A DNA stretch of 64,000 nt from NCBI GenBank assembly GCA_030833315.1, contig JAURHM010000008.1, forward strand, positions 1-64,000. The letters are read 5' to 3'. This DNA is from Burkholderiales bacterium (GTDB lineage Bacteria > Pseudomonadota > Gammaproteobacteria > Burkholderiales > SG8-41). Of this stretch, positions 5,539 to 16,320 are shown piece by piece. The position numbers and the translations under genes were made by a program. The notes beneath the pieces are model-generated. The model saw nothing but the letters and a program-made list of their open reading frames with translations, did no database searches and had not been told where the DNA came from. The stretch's first letter is position 1. Each line of letters starts with the position of its first letter.

Positions 5539-6630
5539 ATGGCTACTAATGAGCTTTTTAGTGAACGCAAACCGCTCGAGATTGCTGAACAAGGCTGCTT
5601 TTTTGTGGGTGGTCGTTATTCTGATGCAGCTGATGATCGCAGCATGCTGGGGCAAATGTTTGTCCAGTATCAGATTCCTGCAAAGCGCAAGTTTCGATAT
5701 CCCCTGGTCATGATTCACGGTGGCGGGCAGACGGGAGTCAATTTTCTAGCTACTCCTGATGGCCGATCAGGCTGGGCTGATTATTTTGTGGCGAATGGCT
5801 ACGCCGTTTACGTGGTTGATCAGCCGGGTCGCGGACGGTCCGGATACTTTTCGGGTTACGGCAAGTCGACCAGTCGCACGGCAGGTCCGATCGCAGAGCG
5901 TTTTTCTGCGCCGGAGCGGGTAAACCGATGGCCGCAGGCGGCGCTGCATACGCAGTGGCCAGGTGAAGGTATTCCTGGCGACGAGGATTTCGACCAGTTT
6001 TATGCATCGCAAGTCGCCAGCATGGACGACATCGCCAATCTGGAGGGCATGATGCGCGATGCCGGAGCTGCCTTGCTGGATCGTATTGGTCCCGCATTAT
6101 TATTGACGCATTCTCAGGGCGGTCCCTTTGGCTGGACGATTGCCGATGCCTGTCCAAAACTGGTTAAAGGAATTTTGGCTATCGAACCCAATGGTGCTCC
6201 AGTCTATGAAGTTCGATTCAAAGGGGCTCCTGACTGGTTTGAGGATGATGCTGTGACCAGACCCTGGGGTATTACCCGGGGGGCACTGTCTTTTTCGCCT
6301 CCCGCAAAAGATCCTTCCGAGATGAAGTTCATCCGTCAGGACGCAGCCGACGGACCGGAGTTGACCCGGTGCTGGCTGCAATCCGGGGAGCCCCGCCAGT
6401 TGCCCAATCTGCAGGGCATTCCGATTCTCATTTTGACTGCGGAGGCGTCCTACCACGCGCCTTACGATCATTGCACCTCGCGGTTTCTCAAGCAGGCTGG
6501 GGTGGAGCATGATTTTGTGCGTCTGGCGGATGTGGGGATCAAAGGTAATGGGCATATGATGATGTTGGAAAAGAATAATCTGGAAATCGCTGCATTTCTT
6601 GCCGGCTGGCTGGTAAACAACGTGAAATGA
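5539..6630 (+). CDS. Alpha/beta hydrolase (esterase-like)
   Basis: The protein has 363 residues and an alpha/beta-hydrolase fold. The oxyanion-hole motif is MIHGGGQTG (His60-Gly). The nucleophile elbow is T-H-S192-Q-G-G, a variant of G-x-S-x-G. The likely catalytic His is in GNGHMMM near the C-terminus, and an Asp/Glu in the EAS/DH segment precedes it. There is no signal peptide, so it is cytoplasmic. It is followed 35 bp later by a Bug-type receptor, and further on by an SDR on the other strand, so a role in breakdown of an imported ester or lactone is plausible. The substrate is not predictable from sequence. Confidence 0.8.
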   Translation: MATNELFSERKPLEIAEQGCFFVGGRYSDAADDRSMLGQMFVQYQIPAKRKFRYPLVMIHGGGQTGVNFLATPDGRSGWADYFVANGYAVYVVDQPGRGRSGYFSGYGKSTSRTAGPIAERFSAPERVNRWPQAALHTQWPGEGIPGDEDFDQFYASQVASMDDIANLEGMMRDAGAALLDRIGPALLLTHSQGGPFGWTIADACPKLVKGILAIEPNGAPVYEVRFKGAPDWFEDDAVTRPWGITRGALSFSPPAKDPSEMKFIRQDAADGPELTRCWLQSGEPRQLPNLQGIPILILTAEASYHAPYDHCTSRFLKQAGVEHDFVRLADVGIKGNGHMMMLEKNNLEIAAFLAGWLVNNVK

Positions 6631-6665
6631 GTTTTTACGCAAGGTGCACAGGTGAGAGGACTGCA

Positions 6666-7631
6666 ATGAACCAAAGAATCATCATCAACAGCTTGGCCAT
6701 GGTGATGGCCGGAGCATGTTCGTTGTTCAATACGTCAGCAGTGGCACAGGCTTATCCCAGCAAGCCGATACGGATAATTGTTCCTGCGTCGCCGGCGGGT
6801 GGGCTGGATATCATGGCGCGCGTGGTGGGGCAGCCGCTTTCATCGCAGTGGGGGCAGCCTGTGGTGGTGGAAAACCGTCCCGGAGCGGGCGTGATGCTGG
6901 GAACCGAAATGGCATCCAAAGCTTTTCCGGACGGTTATACCCTGTTGATGATCAACGCGAATCTCGCGCCTAACGCAATTCTGCAAAACAAGATCAGTGT
7001 TGTTAAAAATCTTGCCGCAGTCGTTAAGATTGCCGATCTGCCGAATGCTTTGTCAGTGCCGGCCTCGCTACCGGTCTCTTCGATGCAGGAACTTGTCGCC
7101 ATGGCAAAGTCATCGCGACTGACCTACAGTTCTGCTGGAAACGGAACGGTCGGTAACATCCTGACTGAAATGCTGAAGCTGGCCATCGGCGCAGACATTA
7201 CGCATGTACCTTACAAAGGTGGAAATCCGGCAATGAATGCGTTAATGGGGGGGCAGGTTTCGATGGGTGTGGTCAGTCTGGCCTCGACCATGGCGCACGT
7301 GAAAGCCGGTCGGGTGAAGATACTGGCTGTCAGCGGCAGCCTGCGTTCGCGCCTTGCGCCGGAAATTCCGACTATCAGCGAGACGGTCAAGGGCGTTGCT
7401 CTGGAAAGCTGGGTTGGGTTGCTCGTTCCTCGGGGCGTCCCGCCTGAAGTGATTCGCAAAATCAACAGTTCGGTTATACAGGCTGTCGCACTTGCCGATA
7501 CGCAACAACGATTGATTTCCCAGGGTTATGACGTTATGGCGGGTTCGCCAGAAGCCTTCGACAAGTTGATACAAAATGACATGGTTTTGTATGGCAAGGT
7601 GATTCGTCAGGCGAACATCAAGGCTGATTGA
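6666..7631 (+). CDS. Bug-family tripartite tricarboxylate transporter substrate-binding protein
   Basis: About 321 residues. The protein begins with a signal peptide ending near SAVAQA and then the standard Bug start YPSKPIRIIVP.SPAGGLDIMAR. Other family hallmarks are the 'ENRPGAG...G' strand, PDGYTLL, YSSAGNGTVGN and VPYKGG. It would bind a carboxylate or related solute in the periplasm and present it to a TctAB-type permease, which is not in the window. I chose ATG 6666 because GAGAGGA lies just upstream and the signal peptide then has normal length; the frame is open further, overlapping the hydrolase stop. Probably co-transcribed with the hydrolase. Confidence 0.9.
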   Translation: MNQRIIINSLAMVMAGACSLFNTSAVAQAYPSKPIRIIVPASPAGGLDIMARVVGQPLSSQWGQPVVVENRPGAGVMLGTEMASKAFPDGYTLLMINANLAPNAILQNKISVVKNLAAVVKIADLPNALSVPASLPVSSMQELVAMAKSSRLTYSSAGNGTVGNILTEMLKLAIGADITHVPYKGGNPAMNALMGGQVSMGVVSLASTMAHVKAGRVKILAVSGSLRSRLAPEIPTISETVKGVALESWVGLLVPRGVPPEVIRKINSSVIQAVALADTQQRLISQGYDVMAGSPEAFDKLIQNDMVLYGKVIRQANIKAD

Positions 7632-7936: not shown

Positions 7937-7953
7937 TGACCTGCCCCCAAGAA

Positions 7954-8814
7954 TTAGCCACAGGCCAATGTAGAGTCCGGGGTTAAATTACCTGAATTTC
8001 GTTGTGCTGCAAACTCCGCTGGGGTGAGATAGCCGAGCGCACTATGCGGCCGGCTGTGGTTGTAATCCTTGCGCCATGCGGCGATACGGGCTCTGGCCTC
8101 ATGCAGCGTTGAGAACCAGTTGTCGTTAAGGCACTCATCGCGGAAGCGGCCGTTAAAACTCTCTATATAAGCGTTTTGCGTCGGCTTGCCGGGCTGGATG
8201 AAGGCCAGCTTGACCCCGTTTCGATATGCCCAGGCATCCAGCGCCAGGCTGGTGAACTCAGGACCGTTGTCGACCCGGATCACCGGTGGCAGGCCACGTT
8301 GAGCAGCCAACTGGTCCAGGAAACGAGCTACCCGGCTGCCTGACAGTGACGTATCCACCTCGATGGCCACGCTTTCCTTGCTGAAGTCATCCACAATGGC
8401 CAGGCAGCGAATCCGCCGCCCATCAGACAGGCCGTCATGCACAAAGTCCATCGACCATACCTGATTCACCGCACGGGCCATTAACGGCATTGACCGTTCG
8501 GTCGGCCCTATACGTTTGCGCCGGCGCTTACGCACAGACAGGTCGGCTGCGCGATAGAGGCGATGCACTCGCTTGACGTTCACTGGCCATCCCTCCCGGC
8601 GCAGCATGATATGGATTCGCCGATAGCCAAAGCGGCGACGCTCGGCGGCCAGTGTCTCAATCCGTCTCCGCAACTCGCCGTTGCCATCAGGACGTGCCCG
8701 GTAGCGCGCCACCGAGGTCGAGATGTGCATCAGCCCGCAGGCGCGTCGCAGGGAGATTGGGGTAGCCGCCATCGCCAGATCCACACCCTCACGCCGCTGC
8801 TGCGGGCTCACCAC
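7954..8814 (-). CDS. IS3-family transposase OrfB (DDE integrase domain)
   Basis: The product has 286 residues. It has an N-terminal HTH_21-like helical region (R-R-R-F-G-Y-R-R-I motif) and then the rve integrase core. The core has the DDE residues in W-S-M-D-F-V, V-D-N-G-P-E-F and the final Glu in N-A-Y-I-E-S-F-N-G, with the C-terminal [18 protein letters not shown] typical of the family. It is made mainly as an OrfAB fusion by -1 frameshifting; the nominal GTG start at 8814 lies in the overlap with orfA. All catalytic residues are present, so the element may be active. Confidence 0.93.
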
Positions 8815-9071
8815 TTTTTTGCGAGCACTGCCTTCAGGGCTTCGTTGTCGAGCATCGCATCGGCCAGCAGCTTCTTCAGTCGGCCGTTCTCGTCTTCCAG
8901 GGCCTTGAGTCGCTTGGCGTCAGAAACATCCATGCCGCCAAACTTCGCCTTCCACTTGTAATACGAGGCGTCCGAGAACCCGTGTTTCCGGCACAACTCC
9001 TGCACTGATACCCCCACATCGGCTTCCTTCAAGAACCCGATGATTTGCTCTTCCGTAAAACGCTTCTTCAT
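8808..9071 (-). CDS. IS3-family transposase OrfA (HTH DNA-binding protein)
   Basis: The product has 87 residues. It starts KKRFTEEQIIGFLKEAD, with the helix-turn-helix in the 'VQELCRKHGFSDASYYKWKAKFGG' region and a leucine-zipper-like tail (LKALEDENGRLKKLLAD), the standard architecture of OrfA in the IS3 family. It binds the element's terminal repeats and, fused to OrfB by frameshifting, forms the transposase. Confidence 0.93.
   Translation of the reverse strand: MKKRFTEEQIIGFLKEADVGVSVQELCRKHGFSDASYYKWKAKFGGMDVSDAKRLKALEDENGRLKKLLADAMLDNEALKAVLAKKW
8814..8820 (-). other. Programmed -1 frameshift slippery heptamer (A6G) in the transposase overlap
   Basis: On the minus strand AAAAAAG occurs at the end of orfA, inside the orfA/orfB overlap, at the place where IS3-family elements shift -1 to make OrfAB. 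Confidence 0.7.
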
Positions 9072-9135
9072 GTCCGACTCCTTTCAGCATAGTCGGACTC
9101 TACACGGCTGTGTAGCTACTCATGGGGGCAGGTCA

Positions 9136-9139: not shown

Positions 9140-9840
9140 TGCCACGGCGTTTACGGTGATGTTGTAGAGGGCCAGATCTACGGCCATTGCACGGGTCATC
9201 GCGATAATGCCGCCCTTCGCGGCAGCATAGGCGGCCCGTCCGCTGCTGCCGAGCAGGCCGGAATGCGAAGAAAAATTGACGATGCGTCCGCCGCCCATTT
9301 CGATCATGTCGTGTGCGGCGGCCTGTGCGCAGAGGAAGGTTCCGACGACGTTCACTTCCAGCATCTGATGCAGCGTTGCCAGCGGCGTTTCCAGAAAATG
9401 CTTTTGTGAACCCAGTCCGGCGTTGTTGATCAGGATGTTGGCGGGGCCGAACATCTCACGGGAGTAATCAATCATCGCCTGTACTTCTTCGGGAATGCGG
9501 ATATCGACCTTGGAAGCAGCCGCCCGGCCACCGGCTGCGGTGATTTCGGCGCACACGGCGTGAGCAGACTCTTCGTTGTTGTCGGCCAGCATCACGCTGG
9601 CGCCGGCTGCAGCGAGACGGTGTGCAATGGCGGCGCCGATACCGTTGCCGCTGCCGGTCACGATTGCGGTCTTGTCGGAAAATTGAACAGACATTCACGG
9701 CTCCAGAGGTTGCAGTGTCCGCATCGCGGAATATTGCGATGTCTGATGACAAGATCCAAGGCTAACACGTGCGCTGCGGCTGGTCGCTGTTTGGCTGATC
9801 CGTTATGCTGCATTTTTTGCAACACGCAAGGAAGTTTCAA

Positions 9841-11544
9841 ATGACAAGTTCAGATTCGCAATACGCAGCGCTGTGGCCGCGCGGTCCGCGTCAGGCCAAG
9901 GTCAAGCCGCTGGCCAAACGGCTGGGCACGCTGGAAGGCAAGACCGTGGCTTGGGTCTGGGATTACGTGTTCCGCGGTAACGAGGTCTTTGAGCAACTGG
10001 AGGCCAGCATGCGTGAACGTTATCCCGGCGTGAAATTCCTGCATTGGGATCTGTTCGGTAATACCCACGGCAGCGACGAGCGCAATGTCGTTGCCAATCT
10101 GCCGCAAAAACTCAAAGAACTCGGGGCTGACGCCGTCGTCTCCGGGATGGGTTGTTGAGGGAGCTGTACGCCCGCCGTGTTGCGGGCCAGTGTGGCGGCC
10201 GAATCTGCCGGTATCCCGTCGGCGACGCTGGTGTGTGAGAGCTTCATGACCCTGTCCAAGGCAGCGTCGCAGGGCCTTGGTTATCCCAATATCGCGGTTG
10301 CCCCGGTGCGCGGCCATCCCGGTCTGCAAAGCAAGGATGTGCTGCAGCAGAACGTGCGCGAGCTGACGCTCGATCGTGTGCTCAATGCATTGTTCAAAAT
10401 GCCGGCGGCAGCCACCGTGGGCGGTGAGCCCGGCGCGCGTGATGTGATCTGCAGCGGCACGTTTGACGAGGTCAATGAATATTTCCTCCAGCATGAGCTC
10501 TCCGACGGCCTGCCTATCGTGCCGCCGACTCTGGAAAAGGTGGAAGCCTTCCTGCGTCATACAGATCGCAAAGCCGGTGATGTGCTGGGTGTGATGTTGC
10601 CCGACAACCGTGCAGCGACGGTATGGAGTGTCGCGGTCAACGGCGTGATGGCGGGATGTCGACCGGAATACATGCCGGTGCTGATCGCAGCAGTGGAAGC
10701 CATGGCGGATCATGACTATGGCGTGGAGCACAGCGGCAACACGCCAGGCGGTGACAACCTGATCATTCTCAACGGGCCGGTGATCAAGGCGCTGGGTTTC
10801 AACTACACCCAGGGCGTGATGCGCGACGGTTTTCAGGCCAACACCAGTGTTGGCCGTTTCTGGCGGCTGTATTTGCGTAACGTCGCCGGCTTCCTGCCGC
10901 ACAAGAATGACAAGGCGACCTTCGGCAACACATGGCGGGTTGTTGTTGCCGAAAACGAGGATGTTGTCGCCAAAATCGGCTGGACGCCGAATTGCGCGGA
11001 TTACGGATTTGCTGCGGGCAGCAATGCGCTGTCGGTTGGGCGTTATACCGGCGGCAATCACATCTCGTCGGTTTCCGGTTCCACACCGGAAGAATTGATG
11101 CCCTATATCGCTGATGCCGTGGTGCGCCAGTACTCCTGGCAGATCATGTTCTCGGTGGGGCAGGGCTACGACACGCTGCGGCCGCTGCTGCTGTTGTCAC
11201 CGATCATTGCCGAGACTATTGCCGCCGGCGGCTGGTCCAAGGAGAAGTTCCGTGAGGAACTGTTCAGGCAGGCGCGGATGCCCGCGCGCATGTTCGAAAA
11301 AATTCTCCGCGACTGGACGCAGAAACCGACCTGGAATCTGACCGAGGAGTATCAGGCGGGACGCATTCCGAAAATGTTCTGTGAATCCGCAGATCCGGAG
11401 CGGATGGTGCCGCTGGTGTGGAAGCCGGAGGATTTTCAGGTGGTTGTTACCGGCGACCTGGGACGTAATAGCATTTACGTGTTCGCTCACAACGGTGTGC
11501 TGGGTTTCCCGGTATGCAAGGCCATAAAGGTGCCGGGTCAATAG
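9841..11544 (+). CDS. UGSC-family selenoprotein fused to a second conserved domain; UGA (10156-10158) read as selenocysteine
   Basis: Read through the in-frame TGA, the gene encodes 567 residues. The start ATG 9841 has AAGGAAG upstream. The N-terminal domain (about 1-205) contains GMGC-U106-GSC109, a UxxC redox motif, in an alpha/beta context (VAWVWD strand, ELGADAVVSG strand before the motif). The C-terminal domain (about 208-567) has SDGLPIVPPT, VMAGC273RPEYMPVLIAA and LNGP, and is homologous to the separate protein at 15265-16320. The reading frame on both sides of the TGA is the same and protein similarity to the second UGSC protein (14723-15268) continues straight across it. A hairpin fitting a bacterial SECIS follows. 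Standard calling would give two false genes (9841-10158 and 10177-11544). The enzymatic activity is unknown; the UxxC motif suggests thiol/selenol redox chemistry. Confidence 0.88.
10164..10190 (+). promoter_or_regulatory. Candidate bacterial SECIS element of the fused UGSC gene
   Basis: Starting 5 nt after the UGA, CUG (10164-10166) pairs with CAG (10188-10190), a UAC bulge follows, then a perfect GCCCGC/GCGGGC stem (10170-10175 with 10182-10187) closes a 6-nt loop CGUGUU. The loop begins 17 nt after the UGA and has a G among its first two bases, as in bacterial SECIS elements bound by SelB. It lies within coding sequence. Confidence 0.75.
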
Positions 11545-13723: not shown

Positions 13724-14701
13724 ATGGCAATGCATCCGATCCCGTCCACCCTTTTAGCCTCCGCCTTGTTGTTTGGCGTCGTTTCAGCCGTACCGGCAGC
13801 CGATACCTATCCCCAACGTCCGGTCCGGCTGATTATTCCCTATCCGCCAGGCGGTGCCGGAGATATCGTCGGTCGCATGCTGGCCACCAGCCTCAGCGCG
13901 GGGCTGGGCCAGCAGATGGTCAATGACAACCGCGGTGGGGGCGGGCAGGTCATTGCTTCACAGATCGCCGCCTCTGCTCCCCCTGACGGTTATACGCTGT
14001 TCCTTGCCAGCGCGACTCATTCGATCAACCCGGCACTGCGCAACAACCTGCCTTACGACACGCTGAAGGATTTTTTGCCGATAACGCTGGTGGCGGAGTC
14101 GCCGCTGGTGTTCGTGGCGCATCCCTCACTGAAGGTCGGCAGTATCCGTGATTTGATTGCCGCGGCCAAGGCGCAACCGGGTCGCATCAATTACGCGTCA
14201 TCCGGTCCCGGTTCCGGCGGTCACATGTCAGTGGAGCTGCTGCAGTCGATGACCGGTATCAATGTCGTGCATATTCCGTACAAGGGCGCCGGACCAGCGC
14301 TGGTCGATGTGGTGGCCGGGCAGGTGCAGATCATCTGTACCAGTCCCTTGCCATCGATGCCCCATGTGAAAAGCGGTCGCTTGCGCGCACTGGGCATGAC
14401 CAGTCTCGCACGCTCGCCGGCTTACCCTGACATTCCTGCAGTGTCGGAGACAGTTCCCGGTTATCAGTCAACGCTGTGGTATGCGCTGCTGGCGCCGGCG
14501 AAAACGCCGCCGGCCATCATCAAGCGTGTGCATGATGAGACGCTGAAGTCGCTGGCAGCGCCGCAGATGCGCGAGCAGATGCTTGCGCTCGGTGCGACGC
14601 CGGTCGGCAATTCGCCGCAGGAACTGCAGACTTTTATCAGCAAGGAAATCCAGATGTGGACCCGTCTGGTGAAGCAGGCGAACATCCGGCTTGATCCCTG
14701 A
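13724..14701 (+). CDS. Bug-family tripartite tricarboxylate transporter substrate-binding protein (first gene of the second UGSC locus)
   Basis: The protein has 325 residues with a signal peptide ending near PAADT, then YPQRPVRLIIPYPPGGAGDIVGR, the canonical Bug N-terminus. PPDGYTLFLAS, YASSGPGSGGHMSVE and IPYKGAGPALVDVV are also family hallmarks. AAGGAAAT precedes the ATG. It would bind a solute in the periplasm. It is followed after 22 bp by the stand-alone selenoprotein gene and then the partner-domain gene, so the receptor, selenoprotein and partner most likely form one operon and the receptor's ligand may be the pathway substrate or its precursor. Confidence 0.92.
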   Translation: MAMHPIPSTLLASALLFGVVSAVPAADTYPQRPVRLIIPYPPGGAGDIVGRMLATSLSAGLGQQMVNDNRGGGGQVIASQIAASAPPDGYTLFLASATHSINPALRNNLPYDTLKDFLPITLVAESPLVFVAHPSLKVGSIRDLIAAAKAQPGRINYASSGPGSGGHMSVELLQSMTGINVVHIPYKGAGPALVDVVAGQVQIICTSPLPSMPHVKSGRLRALGMTSLARSPAYPDIPAVSETVPGYQSTLWYALLAPAKTPPAIIKRVHDETLKSLAAPQMREQMLALGATPVGNSPQELQTFISKEIQMWTRLVKQANIRLDP

Positions 14702-14722: not shown

Positions 14723-15268
14723 ATGATACAAACATTGATACTTTTTGATCCGACGGCGCCGCGCGCCAGTGAGACCGGACCGGTAGCCGCGCAGTCTGCG
14801 CTGCGCGGACTGGCCGGTGCGACGGTGGGTTTCATCGACAACGCAAAACCCAATTTCAATTTTCTTGCTGATGACCTCGCTGAACTGCTGCAGTCACGTT
14901 ACGGCGTGGCGAAGGTGCTCAAGCGCCGCAAGTCTTCGGCTTCACTTCCGGCCGATCCGGCCGTGATCGCAGCCCTGTCGCTTGAATGCGATGTGGTGAT
15001 CGCCGGCTCCGGCGACTGAGGGTCCTGCGCGTCGTGGAGTGTCCACGACAGTGTTGAAGTGACAAGGCAGGGTAAACGCGCCTTGACGGTGTGTTCGACG
15101 GCATTTCAGACGCTCGGTCGTGCCCAGGCCCGTGCACTGGGCAACAGCAATCTGCCCATCGCCGTTATTCCCCATCCCTTCGGCGGACGCAGCCGGGAAG
15201 AGGTGCGCAAAATCGCCGAGCAGTGTGTGGTCGATATCGCCAAACTGCTGGCGGGAGAAAAACCATGA
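14723..15268 (+). CDS. Stand-alone UGSC-family selenoprotein; UGA (15017-15019) read as selenocysteine
   Basis: Read through the in-frame TGA this gives 181 residues. The centre is CDVVIAGSGD-U99-GSC102; downstream the same frame continues with ALTVCSTAFQTLGRAQA and LPIAVIPHPFGG. Both flanks align with the N-terminal domain of the fused selenoprotein at 9841: TVGFID/TVAWVWD, then VVIAGSGD/AVVSGMGC, then LTVCSTAF/ATLVCESF and LPIAVIPHP/PNIAVAPVR. I chose ATG 14723 over the TTG at 14708 because GGAAA lies upstream. The stop overlaps the next gene as ATGA (15265-15268), indicating translational coupling. A strong hairpin follows the UGA. It is probably a cytoplasmic redox protein acting with its neighbour; the reaction is unknown. 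Confidence 0.88.
15031..15049 (+). promoter_or_regulatory. Candidate bacterial SECIS element of the stand-alone UGSC gene
   Basis: GUCGUGGA (15031-15038) and UCCACGAC (15042-15049) form a perfect 8-bp stem with loop GUG. The loop starts 19 nt after the UGA and begins with G, matching the rules for bacterial SECIS hairpins. Stem sequence differs completely from the first gene's hairpin although the geometry is the same, which points to selection on structure. Confidence 0.8.
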
Positions 15269-16320
15269 CGGAGCAGTCTCTGGATCGTGCGGCTACGCTG
15301 GAAATGCCGGACGATATCGATGCCATCAACCGGCTGTATCGAGAGCGTCGCTGGGGCGATGGCCTGCCCATCGTGCCCCCGAGTGCTGCCCGTGTTGATC
15401 GCATGCTGGCGCACAGCGGCCGCGGTCGCCATGAACTCGTCGCACGCGTCGCACCGGGTTTCGGTGCGGCGACCGTGGAACGGATTGCCATCAATGCAGT
15501 GATGGCAGGCTGTGATCCTGAATATCTGCCGGTGCTGATTGCGGCGACCGAAGCGATTGCCGATGCGGAATTCAATCTGCAGGGCATCCAGGCCACGACT
15601 AATCCGGTGGCGGTGTGGCTGGTACTGAACGGCCCGATCTCGAAGCGGCTGCAGGTCAATGCGACGTTCAACTGCATCGGACAGGGCAATTGGGCGAATG
15701 CCACGCTCGGTCGGGCGATGCGACTGATCCTGCAGAACATCGGTGGCGCCTGGCCCGGTGAAATGGACCGGGCGACCCACGGCCAGCCCGGCAAGTTCAC
15801 TTTCTGCTGTGCCGAGAACGAAGAAAACCATCCCTGGCAGCCGCTGCATGTCGAACGCGGATTCGCTGCAGGCGACAGCACGGTGACCGTGGTCGGCGCC
15901 GAAGGTACGATGAACATGAACACCCATGCCCGGTTCGCCGATGAACTGGCGCGGGTCATCGCCGAAACGATGATGCATCCGACCAGCAACGAATACGTGC
16001 ATGGCGGCGAACCCTGGTTCATCCTCGGCACTGAACATGCCGAAATCTTCCGCCGTGAAGGCTGGGACAAGAAGGAGGTCAAACGCCAGTTGTGGGAGCG
16101 CTCGAAAATTGCGGTCAAACAGCTCAGTGCCAAGGAGATTGACCGTGCCCGCGCTTCGCGCGCGTCTGAGCTGGGTGAGTTAAGCGATGACACTTTGCTG
16201 CCAATCTCGCCGCGCGCGGAAGACATTCAGTTGATCGTTGCCGGCGGCCCCGGGACCCATTCGGTCTATGTGCCTTGTTTCGGCAACAGCCGTGCGGTGA
16301 CGCGGCGCATCGCCATTTAG
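15265..16320 (+). CDS. Partner protein of the UGSC selenoprotein (homologue of the C-terminal domain of the fused protein)
   Basis: The protein has 351 residues from ATG 15265, which overlaps the selenoprotein stop. The frame is open further upstream but that part lies inside the selenoprotein gene. It shares GDGLPIVPPS (31-40), INAVMAGC83DPEYLPVLIAATEAIAD, LVLNGPISK and a HGQPGKFTFCCAENEEN region with residues 208-567 of the fused selenoprotein, so it is the same domain as a separate chain. There is no signal peptide or membrane segment. I cannot name the domain. The conserved AGC cysteine and the tight coupling to a UxxC protein suggest that it forms the catalytic or substrate-binding half of a two-part enzyme. 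Confidence 0.85.
   Translation: MTEQSLDRAATLEMPDDIDAINRLYRERRWGDGLPIVPPSAARVDRMLAHSGRGRHELVARVAPGFGAATVERIAINAVMAGCDPEYLPVLIAATEAIADAEFNLQGIQATTNPVAVWLVLNGPISKRLQVNATFNCIGQGNWANATLGRAMRLILQNIGGAWPGEMDRATHGQPGKFTFCCAENEENHPWQPLHVERGFAAGDSTVTVVGAEGTMNMNTHARFADELARVIAETMMHPTSNEYVHGGEPWFILGTEHAEIFRREGWDKKEVKRQLWERSKIAVKQLSAKEIDRARASRASELGELSDDTLLPISPRAEDIQLIVAGGPGTHSVYVPCFGNSRAVTRRIAI

Follow-up and report, generated by a model that had tools for sequence, protein, structure and literature searches.

We found that the gene at positions 9841–11544 (+ strand) of the 64,000-nucleotide stretch of Burkholderiales DNA analysed here (the window) very probably encodes a selenoprotein, in which a UGSC domain is fused to a second, partner domain. 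This reading is based on the retention of the in-frame TGA codon among orthologues, on a cysteine homologue, on the presence of the sel genes and on a conserved hairpin. The frame consists of 567 codons and a stop, and its single in-frame TGA is codon 106 (10156–10158, +), read as selenocysteine U106. In the initial annotation the frame was described as open on both sides of this TGA, with the warning that conventional gene calling would report proteins of 105 and 455 residues. The continuity of the frame was borne out, and the ORFs defined under translation table 11, 9805–10158 (117 aa, or 105 if counted from the ATG at 9841) and 10177–11544 (455 aa), agree with the predicted split. A putative ribosome-binding-like purine-rich stretch, AAGGAAG (9828–9834, +), noticed by eye in the sequence, is situated 6 bases 5′ of the ATG. 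The UGSC domain (PF24696) occupies 9871–10383 (+; residues 11–181) and the partner domain 10435–11532 (+).

Both the TGA and the fusion are kept in all 30 fused orthologue loci that were fetched (L120–L149, of which L120 is the gene of the window itself). As 29 of these loci come from other genomes and share the same TGA, a sequencing error, by which the initial annotation could have been overturned, is very unlikely. The best match to the whole protein was below E 1e-230 in 54 of the 74 genomes of the family, our own included. Among the matches listed, two other rows were without the TGA; these rows start only at residues 201 and 301, beyond codon 106. Over the analysed loci, the TGA was present in 120 of 130 UGSC matches (L120 repeats the window gene). 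Seven of the ten matches without it have a cysteine or, in the case of L111, are without the motif; L100 has a cysteine and is unfused, and the remaining two are fragments. In the family alignment, the corresponding column holds either Sec or Cys in 79/79 covering rows. Homologues with cysteine that align over the joined protein, proposed earlier as a check, were also found: a fused homologue from Curtobacterium pusillum (L072) has Cys at codon 106 and is 41% identical over 539 columns, and a fused homologue from Nocardioides (L086) has Cys at the same column as the TGA.

Next, we looked at the selenocysteine machinery. The genome that carries the window (3.10 Mb in 105 contigs, 98.1% complete) contains selA, selB, selC and selD, all four of the genes for which the initial annotation had suggested a search. 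The tRNA-Sec (selC) scored 75.9 bits against an Rfam cut-off of 47 and was confirmed by ARAGORN, selB scored 423 bits (cut-off 242), selA, sitting just upstream of selB, scored 571 bits, and selD scored 414 bits. The selD gene (L039:3572-4501) has a TGA of its own and is itself a selenoprotein gene, with U in the motif GGGUGCK. TGA also serves as an ordinary stop codon in this genome. In the second UGSC selenoprotein gene of the window, which is unfused (14723–15268, +), a Sec TGA (15017–15019) and a stop TGA (15266–15268) are less than 250 bases apart, and this gene offers a natural control for hairpin-dependent recoding.

A SECIS-like hairpin extends over 10163–10196 (+), with an outer stem (10163–10169/10190–10196), an apical stem (10170–10175/10182–10187) and the loop CGUGUU (10176–10181). 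It had been placed 5 nt after the TGA, and in our prediction the stem does begin at base 5, with base 12 as the start of its apical part. Taken alone, this hairpin was rejected as proof of a self-standing signal: dinucleotide shuffles gave a z of −0.33, with 61 of 200 shuffles at least as good, and codon shuffles a z of −1.00. That it goes beyond chance is therefore argued from the comparison across homologues only. At the 120 loci with the TGA, the segment of 48 bases from this codon onwards folded more stably than its codon-shuffled versions (mean z −2.03), while control windows at offsets of −150, −99, 99 and 150 gave mean z values from −0.61 to 0.15 (118 to 120 loci). For covariation we used 61 distinct sequences in which GSCTP or GSCAP follows the TGA. 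Five of the six apical pairs were paired in 61/61 sequences, nearly all of them unchanged, and the sixth, outer pair was paired in 58/61 (49 GC, 8 AT, 1 GT), with compensatory changes from GC to AT. None of 10000 permutations of the outer pair reached 58; since the permutation ignores relatedness, we take the covariation as support and not as proof. The loop ends in the codon TTG in 52 of the 61 sequences, though our gene favours CTG for leucine (32 of 47). A reading of TGA 10156 as a true stop, be it of two genes, of a decayed gene or through a sequencing error, agrees with the end of the table 11 frame at this codon and with the ordinary energy of the single-sequence hairpin, but is hardly credible in view of the same TGA in the 30/30 fetched orthologue loci (own included), the full-length homologues with Cys there, the Sec machinery in the genome and a hairpin that is kept across homologues.

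We then considered to which proteins the UGSC domain is related. It matched PF24696 with 93.4 bits (cut-off 25) over residues 11–181, and this match spans the TGA. Against the NCBIfam equivalog NF041046, which has a cut-off of 125 bits, the score was 46.2 (the unfused second gene reached 123), which places the fused UGSC in a divergent branch. Thus, it shares with PF24696/NF041046 the whole domain and the UGSC motif, and differs from them in its fusion to a second domain and in this divergence. The earlier observation that the sequences flanking the TGA align with the second UGSC protein also stands: the two are 27% identical (E 2e-12), with the alignment running on both sides of the TGA. A sequence search of the PDB with the UGSC domain gave no credible match.

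Comparison of profiles by hhalign, using 126 UGSC domains against 16 GrdB-type proteins (PF07355) from genomes to which the named loci belong (PF07355 matches were found in 5 of the 10 searched), revealed a link to GrdB/PrdB, the Sec component of the glycine, sarcosine, betaine and D-proline reductases. The UGSC profile matched the GrdB Sec domain at 96.4% (pairwise E 1.3e-9) over UGSC columns 77–158, and its Sec column aligned on the Sec/Cys column of GrdB. The match has its centre in U-G-[ST]-C, in the helix that follows and in the turn that precedes the last aligned columns. Masking of four or five motif columns left it at 92.6–93.7%. The fused UGSC domains alone gave 96.3% and the unfused ones 94.4%, and the seven short PrdB-like members alone matched UGSC at 90.7% over 51 columns. 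Among the controls, 50 column-shuffled GrdB profiles gave 0.5% or less and reversed GrdB 1.5–1.9%. Other real profiles gave 25.1% (GrdE), 5.5% (Asp/Glu racemase), 0.1% (fumarase) and 0.1% (TctC) against UGSC; a relation of UGSC to the Asp/Glu racemases is unsupported at this value. By hmmscan, none of ten UGSC proteins matched PF07355 at E up to 10, in a search in which the HMMER filters drop most weak matches, and in lacking this direct match UGSC differs from GrdB/PrdB. From these comparisons of sequence profiles, we read the UGSC and GrdB Sec domains as distant homologues, which is not the same as membership of PF07355. Two further differences set UGSC apart. The third cysteine of the GrdB motif, given as UxxCxxC in a passage of PMC13188914, is missing in UGSC, which reads U106-G-S-C109-T-P-A112. 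Moreover, the partner does not resemble GrdE: its identity as a GrdE-like pyruvoyl subunit was rejected (hhalign 0.3%), and hence there is no counterpart here to the pyruvoyl half of glycine reductase.

The model of the fused protein was confident (mean pLDDT 95.1, pTM 0.93). Its strands and helices alternate, and U106 sits between strand 98–104 and helix 109–122. For residues 29–191, most of the structure matches listed have a Rossmann-like alpha/beta fold, such as that of SDR enzymes, of FtsZ and of flavodoxin-like or sugar-binding proteins. One Foldseek match of this segment was below E 0.001, an FMN-dependent azoreductase (6.1e-4), and its best VIA match (Z 11.5, 127 residues aligned, 3.2 Å) was a designed protein. 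Chains of GrdB, PrdB and thioredoxin were absent from the best 50 matches listed for the fused model, which has no bearing either way. The fold of the UGSC domain is thus predicted to be Rossmann-like, not that of thioredoxin. A thioredoxin fold runs beta-alpha-beta-alpha-beta-beta-alpha, with UxxC before its first helix. The model departs from this order, as UxxC comes after strand 98–104 and the UGSC part is without a terminal beta hairpin.

A thioredoxin fold was suggested for UGSC proteins in a passage of PMC2398784, and it is conceivable that the protein is a general thioredoxin-type thiol:disulfide oxidoreductase with the fused domain as its dedicated redox client. The UxxC motif would fit this role, and so would a cysteine of the partner, C273, which is conserved in 86/87 aligned rows. 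We regard it as improbable, however, because in the confident, alternating beta/alpha model UxxC comes after the third of the strands 35–40, 65–67 and 98–104, because the PDB matches listed are mostly Rossmann-like, and because an expansion to 58 rows within a single genome, almost all of them fused to a partner or next to one, looks unlike a housekeeping redox protein.

Regarding the second domain, the initial annotation had described UGSC as joined to a partner of unknown function. The fusion was confirmed, and no credible match to the partner was found by sequence in Pfam, NCBIfam or the PDB; such a fusion is, on the other hand, already in print. In 2008, the Global Ocean Sampling study (PMC2398784) described a UGSC protein with an unknown domain joined to it, so the architecture as such is not new. 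That fusion, UGSC/Unknown_1, is known to us from a statement in the paper and from the legend to its Figure S1A, and our partner is probably the published 'Unknown_1'. Conserved residues of the partner are D222, C273, N334, R339, N347, E371 and W381; D222, W381, R339 and N347 are present in all 87 aligned rows. In L072, where Sec is replaced by Cys, the partner has Ala instead of C273. C273 is therefore not essential in every member, and this single case hints that the two residues may cooperate when Sec is present.

The pairing of the two domains is not confined to the fused gene. We counted 10 UGSC loci in our genome. Each of them contains a single TGA, and the partner was present at 10/10 of them, in the same frame in 2 and as an adjacent gene in 8. 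Both orders of the adjacent genes occur, four times each, and one locus has two partners. In the second module of the window, the partner protein (15265–16320, +) follows the unfused UGSC gene, and its ATG overlaps the UGSC stop (ATGA). Among 80 named loci fetched by partner sequence, we counted 66 fused UGSC–partner pairs without a stop between them, a share that is biased towards fusion since these loci were chosen by similarity to our own partner. The survey of gene sequences showed the partner to be a standing companion of UGSC, either fused to it or encoded by the next gene. The nearest named loci are from Burkholderiales and Betaproteobacteria MAGs. Close relatives were also held by MAG contigs named Bordetella parapertussis (L040, L063 and L073), a name that is probably misassigned.

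The partner modelled alone gave a mean pLDDT of 94.6 and a pTM of 0.93. Foldseek returned no match to it at E 0.001 or below, and VIA none with Z of 8 or more, which does not amount to proof of a new fold. Its first 16 Foldseek matches were class I fumarate hydratases (best E 1.8e-3), which in VIA had Z 4.1 to 4.7 and rmsd 5.2 to 6.3; the top VIA rows were chorismate mutases, with Z 5.3 over 89 to 97 residues. The resemblance to class I fumarase is thus a weak, non-significant match of fold, with no similarity of sequence profile (0.1%), and the identity of the partner as such an enzyme is unsupported. Toblerone-fold amidohydrolases, compared by fold only, gave a weak, non-significant match as well (best E 0.14).

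These matches bear on another possibility, that the protein is a lyase, hydratase or isomerase, with Sec as nucleophile or metal ligand and no net redox change, and that the partner has a distant hydratase-like fold. The run of fumarate hydratases at the head of the Foldseek results speaks for it, and so do the enolase-superfamily, aldolase and MmgE/PrpD genes in the neighbourhood. Class I fumarase holds a 4Fe-4S site by three cysteines. The one conserved cysteine of the partner is too few for such a site, the fumarase fold match is below significance with chorismate mutases ahead of it in VIA, the profile comparison with fumarase was negative, and the link to GrdB indicates reductive chemistry. 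We therefore consider this alternative rather unlikely, if better placed than a thioredoxin-type function.

Genes neighbouring the modules gave a further lead. Of 61 neighbouring ORFs scanned at the loci of our genome, 12 encode TctC receptors; TauD and amidohydrolase genes were found there too, besides the enolase-superfamily, aldolase and MmgE/PrpD genes. Two genes for TctC/Bug-type solute receptors were found in the window, each upstream of one of its two modules. The first (6627–7631, +) is 2.2 kb upstream of the fused gene, and the second (13724–14701, +) is directly upstream of the second module, where tctC, UGSC and partner follow in this order on one strand. Between the first receptor gene and the fused gene is an SDR-like gene, divergent to the selenoprotein gene and interrupted by an insertion element (7937–9135). 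This element contains two minus-strand ORFs (7954–8814 and 8808–9071), integrase-like by eye; its inverted ends are TGACCTGCCCC/GGGGCAGGTCA, with CCGG flanking it on both sides. In G049, a related genome of the family (5.7 Mb, 98% complete, 2% contamination), at least one TctC gene was found in 42 of 46 fetched loci (0.411 per kb), and in the external loci TctC occurred in 26 of 80 (0.116 per kb). The density was 0.177 per kb at our own modules, 0.197 at fumarase loci and 0.168 at racemase loci of the family, and 0 at the loci L001–L019 of our genome. As the fumarase and racemase loci are as rich in TctC as our own modules, the enrichment of TctC at the UGSC modules is suggestive, and we treat the link to the receptors as a lead.

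Taking the above together, we give an even chance to the hypothesis that these proteins are substrate-specific selenoenzymes similar to GrdB, which use imported organic acids as substrates, with a pocket in the partner and with specificities that differ between paralogues. One gene would give one two-domain selenoprotein, the partner domain of which might hold the substrate in a pocket of the conserved residues D222, R339, N347, E371 and W381. In GrdB/PrdB-type enzymes, whose chemistry is established, the selenolate is thought to attack amino acids. Passages of PMC13188914 cover part of this chemistry. In a similar manner, the selenolate of U106 may attack the bound substrate, upon which C109 of the UGSC motif, the likely resolving cysteine, would resolve the adduct to a selenenylsulfide, to be reduced by a cellular thiol system. 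The many paralogues would then represent differing specificities for organic acids imported by the TctC/Bug receptors, whose genes are often adjacent.

The number of these paralogues varied widely among relatives. UGSC matches were found in 74/74 genomes of the family, from 1 to at least 40 in each, the larger counts being lower bounds since no more than 40 candidates were scored per genome, and the 21 genomes of our own genus had 4 to 12 matches each. In G049, where all 71 candidates were scored, there were 58 UGSC rows, 54 with the TGA and 4 without. Strain duplicates were rejected as the source of this count: no pair of its UGSC domains exceeded 74.6% identity over more than 100 columns, which makes co-assembled strains an unlikely cause. 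In 3 of the 54 TGA rows of G049 (L205, L217 and L218), the UGSC copies have an additional TAG or TAA besides the TGA, and the expanded family may therefore also be subject to decay. As for published numbers, UGSC is tabulated with the numbers 26 and 33 in part of PMC5029168, and a passage of PMC12013277 gives a selenoproteome of at least 46 within its own set. The 54 TGA-bearing rows of G049 belong to the UGSC family alone and are to be compared with at least 57 and 63 genes for the largest bacterial selenoproteomes, as stated in PMC13188914.

Beyond the report of 2008, the present analysis adds the relation to GrdB, the standing partner and the amplification at the level of a family. The link between UGSC and GrdB and the family amplification were not found in the literature searched; Haft and Tolstoy 2025 (PMC12013261) and Zhang and Gladyshev 2007 (PMC1976440) are outside it and could contain either. 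As standard gene callers split such genes at their active site, the selenoenzymes of a large group may at present be annotated as two fragments. The GrdB link provides a first chemistry to test for a family that has been without a described function since at least 2008, and the adjacent receptors suggest where its substrates should be sought. It is possible, at slightly less than even chance, that UGSC and its partner form a new class of GrdB-like, Sec-dependent enzymes, which in one family, probably of Betaproteobacteria, has multiplied to tens of paralogues per genome, many of them beside a gene for an importer receptor. Such a selenoprotein family would by itself come close to filling a record selenoproteome, and would make the breakdown of many organic acids depend on selenium.
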